Part shown: one piece after another, positions 32,590-35,461 of the stretch
Layout: each line of letters begins with the position of its first letter
How positions within the stretch are numbered: the first letter of the stretch is position 1
The notes under the pieces: model-generated
What the model was told of the DNA's origin: nothing
The model's input: only the letters and a program-made list of their open reading frames with translations
The model's database searches: none
Source of the DNA: Bacteroidales bacterium
GTDB lineage: Bacteria > Bacteroidota > Bacteroidia > Bacteroidales > UBA12077
Direction: 5' to 3'
Length of the DNA stretch: 43,883 nucleotides
Assembly (NCBI GenBank): GCA_019038645.1
Contig: JAHOYT010000090.1
Location: 1-43,883 of the forward strand
Made by a program: the position numbers and the translations under genes

Positions 32590-32802
32590 TTAATTAGTGA
32601 AAAAATCAACTACATTTCCAAATTTATTACTCGATGTTTTATATAGTTCTGTATACTGACATTTAGAACAAGTAACCGTAGTAAACTTAATATTCTGAAT
32701 ATTAAAAAGTTTCATCATAAAACTACCTGTTGTTCTAATTTCACCTATTTCATACTTTTTGTTATTGCATTTCGGACAAGTGTATTTATATTTATTATAC
32801 AT
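32590..32802 (-). CDS. Small zinc-ribbon protein
   Basis: A 70-aa protein with a four-cysteine zinc ribbon: Cys9 and Cys12 in YTCPKCNNKKY and Cys45 and Cys48 in VTCSKCQYTELYK. Between them is EIRTTGSFMMKLFNIQNIKF. It resembles the small 'nucleic-acid-binding Zn-ribbon' family, whose members have the same GEIRTTG...KLFNIQN-type linker and a C-terminal YK. It could be a nucleic-acid or protein adaptor; nothing more can be said. It is the last gene of a four-gene minus-strand run, 11 bp after the 196-aa protein. Confidence 0.75.
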   Translation of the reverse strand: MYNKYKYTCPKCNNKKYEIGEIRTTGSFMMKLFNIQNIKFTTVTCSKCQYTELYKTSSNKFGNVVDFFTN

Positions 32803-32813
32803 ATTATATGATT

Positions 32814-33404
32814 TTAGTTTAACTTATTTCTTATACGATAACCCAGATTATGAGCTTTATCAATCAGTTCTTTGTCAAGTATCCAATTCGACGCCATGAA
32901 TACAGACAGGAATTTCTTTCCCTTTAATTCTGTATTAAAGGTTGGATTAATTTCATTAAATCCAACATATAAACAATCGTCTGTATTTAAAAATTCAATA
33001 ATTTCTAATTGAATTTTTGAGCTACTCAGCAACTTATGTGTTTCTATATCATTATTCGTTTCAATAAGAACCTTAGAATCGAAGCTACTGTTTCCAATTT
33101 TAAATCTCAGCCTGTTTTTACGGAAGCTCAACTTATCAAGTGAATGCCTTTTCCTAATCAATAATTTATAATTATCATATCCTGAAACCGGAAAAAATAT
33201 ACCACTATATAAACTGTATTTATCAAAATTAGCCGATTGTACAGAAATGAAATATGAGTTTTTTATTTGATAATTTCTTATTATAACCTTGCGAACAGTG
33301 ATTCCATGTCTGCTATTTCTGGTTTCTTCTTTAATATTAATTTCCCAATCAGCCTTTTTTGCTATAGCCTTTAATATGTCAACTGATGATATATCTTTTT
33401 CCAT
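32814..33404 (-). CDS. 196-aa protein of unknown function in SPFH operon
   Basis: I do not recognise this family. The 196-residue product is soluble, without signal peptide or membrane helix. It starts with a helical segment (DISSVDILKAIAKKADWEINI), continues with mostly beta-type alternating residues (RKVIIRNYQIKNSYFISVQ, YKLLIRKRHSLDKLSF) and has a short conserved-looking centre (RFKIGNSSFDSKVLIETND) that reads like a ligand-binding or effector domain. Basic residues are frequent (pI likely above 9). It lies 11 bp after the ribbon-helix-helix gene and 11 bp before the zinc-ribbon gene, so it is surely in the same transcript. It may be the effector part of this module, but that is inference. 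Confidence 0.7.
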   Translation of the reverse strand: MEKDISSVDILKAIAKKADWEINIKEETRNSRHGITVRKVIIRNYQIKNSYFISVQSANFDKYSLYSGIFFPVSGYDNYKLLIRKRHSLDKLSFRKNRLRFKIGNSSFDSKVLIETNNDIETHKLLSSSKIQLEIIEFLNTDDCLYVGFNEINPTFNTELKGKKFLSVFMASNWILDKELIDKAHNLGYRIRNKLN

Positions 33405-33415
33405 TGTTTCGTATA

Positions 33416-33598
33416 TTATTCTTTTTTAGAATTTGATAAGTCCTGGTTTTTTAACCTATGGGAATCTTTAAGTGCCTTAGTAATAATCCATTCAATTTGC
33501 CCGTTGGTACTGCGAAATTCATCGGCAGCCCACTTCTCAAGCGCTTTCATCTTTTCCTCGCTAATTCTAAGTACAAAAGATTTCTTTTTAGACATCAT
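33416..33598 (-). CDS. Arc/MetJ-type ribbon-helix-helix DNA-binding protein
   Basis: A 60-aa protein. Residues about 4-45 (KKSFVLRISEEKMKALEKWA, then STNGQIEWIITKALKDSHR) match the Arc-like ribbon-helix-helix fold: a beta strand KSFVLRIS that would lie in the DNA major groove, and two helices, the second beginning after STNGQ. The tail is short and polar. Its ATG abuts the SPFH stop codon with no gap, so the two are translationally linked. Toxin-antitoxin systems use such proteins as antitoxins, but no toxin-like gene is adjacent. More likely it is an autoregulator: two TGATATCA palindromes 11 bp apart lie in the operon promoter, as Arc/MetJ operators do. Confidence 0.82.
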   Translation of the reverse strand: MMSKKKSFVLRISEEKMKALEKWAADEFRSTNGQIEWIITKALKDSHRLKNQDLSNSKKE

Positions 33599-34453
33599 CT
33601 AATGATTTAATGTTCCTGTATTTACAACAGGTCTTGCTGATTCTTCAGAACAAAGTACAACCATTAAATTACTAACCATTGCAGCTTTGCTTTCCTGATC
33701 CATATCAATTATATCTTTACCAGACAATTGTTCCAAAGCTATTTCAACCATACTAACCGCACCTTCCACAATTTTATGTCGCGCTGCAACTACTGCTGTA
33801 GCTTGCTGTCTTCTTAACATAGCACTGGCAATTTCCTCAGCATAAGCAATATAATTTATTCGTGCTTCTATTACATGAATTCCTGCTATTTCTAATCTTT
33901 CTATAATCTCCTTTTCTAATTCATGATTTACTTCTTCAACACCTGATCGTAATGTAACTTCTGCTTGTTCATCCTCAAAATTATCATACGGATATTTTCC
34001 GGCAAGCTTACGTAATGCCGCGTCGCTTTGGACCACAACAAAGTGCTCATATTCATCTACTTCAAAGGCGGCTTTATAAGTTTCTTCAACCTTCCAAACT
34101 AAAACAACTCCAATCTTAATTGGGTTTCCAACTTTATCGTTTACTTTGCTGGGATCGCTATCAAAATTCCGTGCCCGTAACGAAATCTTTTTGCGAGTAA
34201 AAAACGGATTTACCCAGAAAAAACCATTTTCCTTTATTGTTCCTTTATAAGCTCCGAAAAGAACCAGAACCATAGATTCGTTTGGATTTACAATTACCAG
34301 CCCGATTAACATAAAAATGCCAATTATCACTAATGCCAGAAACCATAGGTTATGCAGCATAATTAAACCTGCAATACCCACTCCAATCATTATTAAATCC
34401 AAAAATAACATTAAAAAACCTGATGCTGCCGAGAATACTTTTTCTTTTTTCAT
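33599..34453 (-). CDS. SPFH/band 7 domain membrane protein
   Basis: A 284-aa protein with two N-terminal hydrophobic segments (FLMLFLDLIMIGVGIAGLIML and LWFLALVIIGIFMLIGLVIV), then the SPFH domain from about residue 52 (VNPNESMVLVLFGAYKGTIK, ENGFFWVNPFFTRKKISLRA) with the typical RNFDSDPSKVNDKVGNPI and VLVWKVEETYKAAFEVD sections. A helical C-terminus (ERLEIAGIHVIEARINYIAY, MLRRQQATAVVAARHKIVEG) matches stomatin/slipin-like proteins. Such proteins form membrane-associated oligomers and organise membrane domains. It is the first gene of a four-gene unit ending in a zinc-ribbon protein; the promoter and operator are described separately. The partner role is unknown. Confidence 0.9.
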   Translation of the reverse strand: MKKEKVFSAASGFLMLFLDLIMIGVGIAGLIMLHNLWFLALVIIGIFMLIGLVIVNPNESMVLVLFGAYKGTIKENGFFWVNPFFTRKKISLRARNFDSDPSKVNDKVGNPIKIGVVLVWKVEETYKAAFEVDEYEHFVVVQSDAALRKLAGKYPYDNFEDEQAEVTLRSGVEEVNHELEKEIIERLEIAGIHVIEARINYIAYAEEIASAMLRRQQATAVVAARHKIVEGAVSMVEIALEQLSGKDIIDMDQESKAAMVSNLMVVLCSEESARPVVNTGTLNH

Positions 34454-34478: not shown

Positions 34479-34510
34479 CAAATTATATGATATCAGTTTG
34501 ATATCACAAT
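34479..34510 (-). promoter_or_regulatory. SPFH-operon promoter with tandem TGATATCA operator
   Basis: On the minus strand ATTG (34507-34510) is followed by TGATATCA, AAC and TGATATCA, then TATAATTTG (34479-34487). The 19 bp of palindromes and AAC fill exactly the gap between a -33-like TTG and a -7-like TAnnTTG/TATAATTTG. The two perfect 8-bp palindromes lie at 34488-34495 and 34499-34506, centres 11 bp apart. This spacing matches tandem sites of MetJ and Arc. The SPFH ATG (34453) is 26 bp beyond. A repressor bound here would block the promoter; the operon's RHH protein is the obvious candidate. Confidence 0.6.
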
Positions 34511-34547
34511 AATATTAATTATTTTAATACAAGTCAAGTTTTTTTAT

Positions 34548-34580
34548 AAAAAAAAGAGATGATATAAAACATCATCTCTT
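34548..34580 (-). terminator. Rho-independent terminator for the minus-strand 64-aa/sigma unit
   Basis: A perfect 10-bp stem, AAGAGATGAT (34554-34563) and ATCATCTCTT (34571-34580), with a 7-nt loop. On the minus strand it is followed by a run of eight T's. It ends the transcript of the 64-aa gene, isolating it from the SPFH operon. Confidence 0.85.
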
Positions 34581-34602: not shown

Positions 34603-34797
34603 TTAAGAATAGTTATTCGCAAAATTAATTACATTATCCACTATTCTTTTCGGAACCTTTCTGGTGTTTTCCTCAATAAACTTAATTACATAATCAAATT
34701 CACTAAAATCATATTTTTCAACATCTACCGATATTGATTCGCTTATTTCACTGTAACTAAGAAGATTAATCGGAGTAAAAGTTTTTCCCATACGCAT
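34603..34797 (-). CDS. 64-aa protein downstream of ECF sigma factor, unknown function
   Basis: A 64-aa product starting MRMGKTFTPINLLSYSEIS. It is acidic in the middle (DVEKYDFSEFDYVIKFIEEN) and ends in PKRIVDNVINFANNYS. No signal peptide or membrane helix, so it is not a classical membrane anti-sigma factor. The ending P-x-x-x-V-x-x-I-x-N-F-A resembles short proteins often found beside ECF sigma factors in Bacteroidota, an impression from memory. It starts 73 bp after the sigma-factor gene's stop and shares a strong terminator, so it may be co-transcribed. It could be a small regulator of the sigma factor; no function is assigned. Confidence 0.6.
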   Translation of the reverse strand: MRMGKTFTPINLLSYSEISESISVDVEKYDFSEFDYVIKFIEENTRKVPKRIVDNVINFANNYS

Positions 34798-34870
34798 TAT
34801 TTATTGTTAATTCATTTAAATAACGTGTATGGGAATTTCTTTATTATACTTTACCTAAACTTTTTTTATC

Positions 34871-35461
34871 TTAAGTAATAGTTAAGCTTAAGTTTTTCTC
34901 TTCAACCAACTTACGCATATTGATTAATGCGTATCTCATACGCCCTAAAGCTGTATTTATGCTTACATTCGTCTGTTCAGCAATTTCTTTAAAACTTAGC
35001 CCAAGAAAATGACGTAGTAAAATAACTTCCTTTTGTTCATCCGGAAGAAAATCAACCAGCGAACGAACATCCGACATTATCTGATCATGAATGATATCTT
35101 CTTCTATTGTATTATCAGAAAACCTTGAAGAATTAAAAATATCAGTTTCATAATCATCGTTCGAGAAAGTTTTCATTTGCTTTTCTTTCCGGAAATGATC
35201 TATAATTAAATTATGAGCTATACGAATTACCCATGAAATAAATTTCCCGTTCTCCTGATATTTTCCAGCATGTAGCGATTTAACAACTTTAATAAAAGTT
35301 TCCTGAAAGATATCCTGAGCTAAATATTCTTTTTTAACCATTAACAAGATATAGGTATAAACCTTATCTTTGTGACGACTAATCAGGATTTCGAAACTGG
35401 ATTGTTCACCTTCCACAAACTGCTTTACCAGTTCATGATCGGTAAGTTTTGATTTTTTCAA
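34871..35461 (-). CDS. ECF-type RNA polymerase sigma-70 factor
   Basis: A 196-aa sigma factor with regions 2 and 4 only, typical of the ECF group. Region 2 includes KDKVYTYILLMVKKEYLAQD and IFQETFIKVVKSLHAGKYQ, ending WVIRIAHNLIIDHFRKEKQM. Region 4 is LPDEQKEVILLRHFLGLSFK followed by EIAEQTNVSINTALGRMRYA, with the helix-turn-helix. The start is TTG at 35461, giving MKKSKLTDHELVKQFVEGEQ. A strong Shine-Dalgarno AGGAGG on the minus strand at 35467-35472 lies 5 bp before it, unusual in this AT-rich genome and decisive for the start. No adjacent membrane anti-sigma gene is visible; a 64-aa orphan follows. It is divergent from uvrA with a 175-bp gap. Confidence 0.92.
   Translation of the reverse strand: MKKSKLTDHELVKQFVEGEQSSFEILISRHKDKVYTYILLMVKKEYLAQDIFQETFIKVVKSLHAGKYQENGKFISWVIRIAHNLIIDHFRKEKQMKTFSNDDYETDIFNSSRFSDNTIEEDIIHDQIMSDVRSLVDFLPDEQKEVILLRHFLGLSFKEIAEQTNVSINTALGRMRYALINMRKLVEEKNLSLTIT

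Follow-up and report, generated by a model that had tools for sequence, protein, structure and literature searches.

We propose that two tandem copies of the palindrome TGATATCA in front of an operon for an SPFH protein and a small Arc-like ribbon-helix-helix (RHH) protein form a private autoregulatory operator through which the RHH protein, encoded by the second gene, would shut off the SPFH-RHH operon. From comparisons of sequence, we consider this reading to be right with a probability of about 0.8. The DNA studied here (the "window") is a stretch of 43,883 bases in which exactly two copies of TGATATCA are found, box A and box B, which form a pair at 34488–34506 with centres 11 bp apart and the 3-bp spacer AAC (Table 1). 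Read along the minus strand, the order of elements is TTGAC, 15 nt, TAATATTATTG, TGATATCA, AAC, TGATATCA, and TATAATTTG, with the SPFH start codon 34 nt past box B. The two perfect palindromes, their spacing, and the flanking TATAATTTG (34479–34487) and ATTG (34507–34510) had been described in a first-pass annotation of this DNA and were confirmed at these positions. A degenerate third box, TAATATTA, is absent from that annotation; at its offset, at least 6 of 8 positions match in 44 of 100 regions, as against about 0.6% of background positions. A lone TGATATCA is not rare (1.70 copies expected per window), and the exact pair with 11-bp centres is a single occurrence in the 3.39-Mb genome, where the next best match to the operator has 2 mismatches.

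Table 1. Coordinates of the operator, promoter, and operon features in the window.
Feature	Position	Strand	Remarks
Box A, TGATATCA	34499..34506	-	perfect palindrome; sequence and conservation
Box B, TGATATCA	34488..34495	-	perfect palindrome; sequence and conservation
Degenerate third box, TAATATTA	34510..34517	-	same 11-bp register; overlaps the -7 element
-7 element, TATTATTG	34507..34514	-	one mismatch to TAnnTTTG; adjoins box A on its 5' side
-33 element, TTG (of TTGACT)	34535..34537	-	20 nt from the -7 element
Inferred transcription start	34502 (about)	-	inside box A; inferred from the -7 position in F. psychrophilum
Intrinsic-terminator-like hairpin	34554..34580	-	12-pair stem and T tail; shuffle mean 0.0
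SPFH / Band 7 protein, 284 aa, gene 1	33599..34453	-	PF01145, E 5e-23
Arc-like RHH protein, 60 aa, gene 2, proposed repressor	33416..33598	-	
196-aa protein	32814..33404	-	no Pfam match; 11-bp gap after the RHH gene
70-aa zinc-ribbon protein	32590..32802	-	PF09855, E 1.7e-25

Conservation of the operator was scored as the number of matches, out of 16, to TGATATCA-N3-TGATATCA in up to 200 nt of sequence preceding the SPFH start. A first set of 76 regions comprised the window and 75 of 80 related loci that were readable upstream of SPFH; L086, L087, L089, L092, and L101, where the match starts in the gene or near a contig end, were left out, and only L025–L037 were counted of two series that largely represent the same contigs (L006–L024 and L025–L037). 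Scores of at least 13/16 were reached by 73 of the 76 regions and scores of at least 14/16 by 69, while among 1,520 shuffles of this set 8 reach 13 and none reaches 14. The three misses are L064 (10), L065 (12), and L079 (12), and L064 and L079 keep only box B. L060 is counted at 13, yet its site lies 73 nt upstream and looks like a chance match, and the 14/16 site of L039 is located together with its -7 element 104 nt from the start. A second set gave the same picture, with at least 13/16 in all 54 SPFH-positive Bacteroidota genomes other than the window's own and at least 14 in 52 of them (2 of 1,080 shuffles reach 13); it contains two identical rows (L160 and L161) and may share species with the first set. 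When the spacer was varied from 0 to 15 bp over the 76 regions, 69 reach 14 matches at 3 bp and 0 to 15 do so at any other length, the second-best spacer being 14 bp (15/76), which is the next multiple of 11 bp.

The operator is also nearly private to the operon. Searching the 24 family genomes with at most one mismatch, we found the site in 18 of them, directly upstream of SPFH in 17 and, in the remaining one (G012), at a contig edge next to the neighbour that normally precedes SPFH. Three further such sites in the 24 genomes all lie inside open reading frames, and of the 6 genomes without a site of this quality, only G004 has an SPFH match, which comes with a 13/16 site. A wider regulon was considered and, as far as near-exact sites are concerned, rejected, since such a site is next to unique in each genome. 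In the window's own genome, a single separate site has 2 mismatches (C33:10218); it coincides with the start of a reading frame and was taken as chance. Those with 3 mismatches are numerous there.

SPFH and RHH genes travel together. Among 296 Bacteroidota genomes, the RHH protein was detected in 57 (E up to 1e-6) and SPFH in 55 (E up to 1e-25), and all 55 SPFH genomes also encode RHH. In 97 of 100 loci (about a dozen of them represented twice), SPFH is followed by an RHH match in the same orientation, and the contig ends before the RHH position in the other 3; the RHH reading frame of L049 is split. Cultured relatives that have the operon include Labilibaculum and Marinifilum. One genome, G218, has lost most of the 3' part of SPFH and also has a frame change and a stop in this gene (L177 = G218:C47, about 1790–2200), yet retains a 14/16 operator and an open RHH frame. 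This agrees with an operator that belongs to RHH, though weakly, as it is a single genome. Another one, G061, encodes RHH without SPFH and has only a weak 13/16 site about 200 bp upstream.

The 60-aa protein alone has no Pfam match at E 0.001, so that its designation as an RHH protein in the first-pass annotation had to be tested. Compared to the PDB, a profile of 24 orthologues matches Arc, with a best E of 2.3e-5 (the tandem Arc construct pArc, in two weak stretches) and E values of 0.0013–0.0086 for the next four Arc sequences. With E values of up to 1 accepted, 23 of the 24 family members match Pfam Arc, the best of them at 1.6e-7. The window protein itself reaches 17.7 bits, below the cut-off of 20.4, and a search of its own genome with the Pfam Arc model gave no match at E 0.001. 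On sequence similarity, the protein is an Arc-like RHH protein. In the alignment, the window protein shows S-V-R at Arc positions 9, 11, and 13, and an arginine occupies the R13 position in 152 of 152 RHH sequences (some genomes counted twice), a count for which the search pattern itself required the arginine and was matched by all 152. The AlphaFold model of the single chain has helices at 14–27 and 31–45 and no formed strand, which might be normal for one chain taken out of an intertwined dimer. With this model, Foldseek returned only an endoribonuclease-antitoxin entry (E 3.8) and one other entry (E 5.2), both weak matches, and VIA-align, which compared only these two, yielded nothing useful. 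The strand of L060, a locus that also is without a convincing operator, reads K-S-I-L-L-R as opposed to F-V-L-R in most relatives. Within Bacteroidota, beta strand and operator both hardly vary, too little for a comparison of co-variation.

Half-sites of Arc, the repressor of phage P22, are spaced 11 bp apart, and met boxes are contiguous and follow each other in 8-bp steps. MetJ and the protein described here are both RHH proteins associated with tandem 8-bp palindromes; the boxes of the window, unlike met boxes, are set at 11-bp steps. An array of contiguous boxes as for MetJ was rejected, since a spacer of 0 leaves 0 of the 76 regions at 14 or more compared to 69 with a spacer of 3. The 11-bp steps fit an Arc-type rather than a MetJ-type array. 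With Arc (PF03869; PDB 1par and 1bdt), the window protein has in common its small size, profile similarity over the RHH domain, the arginine at R13, and the spacing of half-sites. It differs from Arc in that it is chromosomal and encoded within an SPFH operon, in that each half-site is a full palindrome TGATATCA with often three boxes per array, and in that the Q9 and N11 positions are mostly S/P/A/K and V/L/A, respectively. AmrZ of Pseudomonas, another Arc-like RHH protein, is an autorepressor that occupies two half-sites as a dimer of dimers (available text of PMC3325190); its own sites, at -93 and -161, are not its only targets, whereas the window operator covers the inferred start and seems private. 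RelB and other RHH antitoxins likewise repress their own operons via paired sites with critical spacing (PMC2812701, in its accessible portion), but the partner in our case is a membrane SPFH protein and no recognised toxin family is adjacent: A Pfam search of the neighbours of the SPFH-RHH pair found none, but the 196-aa neighbour is without a Pfam match.

How the boxes would act depends on the position of the promoter. The Bacteroidota -7 consensus is TAnnTTTG and the -33 element is of the TTTG type (available parts of PMC7366714 and PMC9723704), and TAnnTTTG occupies -12 to -5 in F. psychrophilum (the same portion of PMC9723704). This housekeeping arrangement, TAnnTTTG with a TTG around 20 nt upstream, is present in the window with one mismatch. 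Among the 73 regions scoring at least 13, on which all promoter sub-counts rest, 60 have TAnnTTTG immediately before box A with no more than one mismatch (35 of them exactly), and all 60 also have a TTG 18–22 nt further up; TTG stands at the window's own -33 offset in 57 of 100 regions. The conserved promoter is probably TTG-N20-TATTATTG just upstream of the pair, which would place the boxes over the start site and not in the -33/-7 spacer.

The first-pass annotation had assumed the same RHH repressor with another layout, in which the boxes fill the spacer between ATTG as -33 and TATAATTTG as -7 element. A plain sigma-70 consensus scan of the window cannot separate the two candidate promoters, since both score 10/12, and the first box does sit between -35 and -10 in 16 of 26 loci from other classes of the phylum. 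However, TATAATTTG misfits TAnnTTTG in its spacing, and a -7 element downstream of the boxes is not conserved: At offsets of 18–22 from box A, the exact TAnnTTTG is found 0 times per offset among 42–45 sequences and a version within one mismatch in at most 2 of them, as against the 60 of 73 regions for the upstream -7 element. Furthermore, box B ends no more than 8 nt before the start codon in 31 of 73 regions, so close that a -7 element downstream of the boxes would start the transcript inside the gene. We therefore abandoned the spacer-filling layout, which we regard as very unlikely.

The other classes of the phylum show how array and promoter can shift against each other. Of 26 loci scored (L143 was left out), 16 have TTGAC (twice TTGAT) followed by boxes starting at +9, +20, and +31, with a perfect middle box that supplies the -10 element TATCAT; the remaining 10 depart from this layout. 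The window differs by one 11-bp unit: Its boxes begin at +20, +31, and +42 when counted from TTGAC, so that array and promoter have moved against each other but the register is kept. One may ask at this point whether the boxes serve an activator or act as a leader RNA element instead of forming a repressor operator, given that around half of the array falls into the predicted 5' leader in Bacteroidia if the inferred start is right. We see hardly any likelihood in this: The array overlaps the -7 or -10 element and the inferred start, where a bound protein should block polymerase, and the window and the 16 other-class loci share its 11-bp register to TTGAC despite the shift by one unit, which favours DNA binding over an RNA fold.

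For the proposed repressor operator, the mechanism would be as follows. One Arc-like RHH dimer would bind each TGATATCA via its two-stranded beta sheet, and two or three such dimers would line up along the same face of the helix in 11-bp steps and cooperate, as the spacing and the example of Arc suggest. With the -7 element and the predicted start both lying under the array, RHH protein that has accumulated would block RNA polymerase and thereby switch the SPFH-RHH operon off.

Beyond Bacteroidota, a tblastn search of a plasmid library with the window RHH protein gave 8 records, all of which have SPFH directly upstream of RHH and a 13–16/16 site upstream of SPFH. These come from Prevotella, Parabacteroides, Phocaeicola, two Deinococcus, Nonomuraea (Actinomycetota), Acetoanaerobium (Bacillota), and Qipengyuania (Alphaproteobacteria), so that five records carry the operator outside Bacteroidota, in Deinococcota, Actinomycetota, Bacillota, and Alphaproteobacteria. 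Four of the stretches are GC-rich (60–72% GC), and their next best site outside the array scores only 9–11. The paired palindromes and their spacing are thus kept across Bacteroidota and four other phyla, and the comparison of orthologous promoters that the first-pass annotation had named as its own check came out in its favour. A phage library contributed three short, unverified metagenome contigs, one with SPFH pieces, RHH, and a 14/16 site and two that begin inside SPFH, with the upstream region beyond the contig.

A divergent RHH query added 4 plasmid records, from Bosea, Rhizobium, and two Thermus thermophilus. The SPFH-RHH pairs of Bosea (12/16, one perfect box) and Rhizobium (best 10/16) are without the full operator, and the two Thermus plasmids have an RHH relative without an SPFH match or operator (best 10/16). 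Altogether, the operator accompanies 8 of 12 plasmid-library records, all 8 of them SPFH-RHH, and the 4 without it are the two divergent pairs and the two records without SPFH. On the Thermus records (L187 and L190, 2977–3168), the RHH relative follows an ABC transporter ATP-binding gene, and a lanthionine synthetase gene also precedes it on one of them. In the divergent Rhizobium and Bosea pairs, the beta strand of the RHH protein differs along with the operator (G-P-R in Rhizobium, A-S-R in Bosea), a joint change that is suggestive but limited to two cases.

These exceptions are what speaks for another transcription factor acting on the boxes, with the RHH protein acting elsewhere or binding them only in some lineages: Thermus has an RHH relative without such a site nearby, the Rhizobium and Bosea pairs are without the full operator, and RHH binding to the boxes is deduced from sequence comparison. 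On the other hand, the site accompanies SPFH-RHH in five phyla with differing other neighbours, RHH is the DNA-binding protein common to these loci, tandem half-sites at 11 bp suit a protein of the Arc family, and G218 keeps the site and RHH although its SPFH is broken. We consider a different factor improbable and the assignment of RHH as the regulator of the boxes very likely correct. A conserved SPFH-RHH pair with a palindromic start site shared by several phyla points to an ancient self-regulating pair.

The neighbourhood of the pair is more variable. The 196-aa protein gene probably belongs to the same operon, and relatives of its product turned up in 24 of the 99 loci searched, with some genomes represented twice; 23 of these relatives are 53–78% identical and one 26%. 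The zinc-ribbon protein may be part of the operon's function because relatives (PF09855) are encoded in 52 of 99 loci (again with some genomes twice), often downstream of the RHH gene. On the other side, the terminator-like hairpin separates the promoter from a 64-aa ORF and an ECF sigma factor gene located just upstream (34603–35461), and relatives of the latter are present in 67 of 99 loci (some genomes twice). In L113 and L119, an alpha/beta-hydrolase-like ORF and the gene for a membrane protein of some 171 aa (names read from sequence) immediately precede the RHH gene.

SPFH genes in conserved operons are known from the survey of SPFH subfamilies 1–12 and NfeD operons (PMC2636767, available text), and the partners described there are NfeD proteins; the words "ribbon" and "DNA-binding" are absent from the main text of that paper in its available form. 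According to the same portion of this 2009 survey, there was no documented member of the small SPFH subfamilies 6–12. Literature searches among open-licence papers found no description of a pair of SPFH and an Arc-like or RHH repressor, no membrane-scaffold-controlled RHH repressor of this type, and no account of the regulation of this SPFH gene. Judged by the available text of the matching papers, a co-mention of SPFH and ribbon-helix-helix came from a cited title about VirC2 and is unrelated, a match for three of the four terms Band 7, CopG, Bacteroidetes, and autoregulation concerns, to judge by its entry, a plasmid toxin-antitoxin system, and the matches listed for TGATATCA as a term are unrelated by title.

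What the SPFH partner contributes can be approached through its C-terminal tail. The motif P..N.G[TSN][LIV] plus up to three residues ends 155 of 155 sequences from five phyla (some genomes counted twice) and is encoded at 33602–33640 in the window. Our guess would be that this tail could dock a partner, with RHH as the candidate since it is what accompanies SPFH. It is conceivable, if rather doubtful, that SPFH and the Arc-like repressor are a signalling pair, present in at least five phyla, in which a membrane assembly of SPFH binds or releases the repressor, perhaps via the tail. If so, the state of the membrane would set the expression of the operon.

The predicted system is in kind an Arc-like autorepressor with a tandem operator and is unusual in its partner and its reach. 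It provides a defined 19-bp site that is now available to be searched for, footprinted, and mutated. With a box serving as the -10 element in other classes and lying one 11-bp unit off in Bacteroidia, the register of the operator appears to have been kept while the type of promoter changed. Since the repressor gene is kept with SPFH and the same operator is found in AT-rich Bacteroidota as well as in stretches of 60–72% GC, our results suggest that the SPFH level is subject to negative control of its own in distantly related bacteria.
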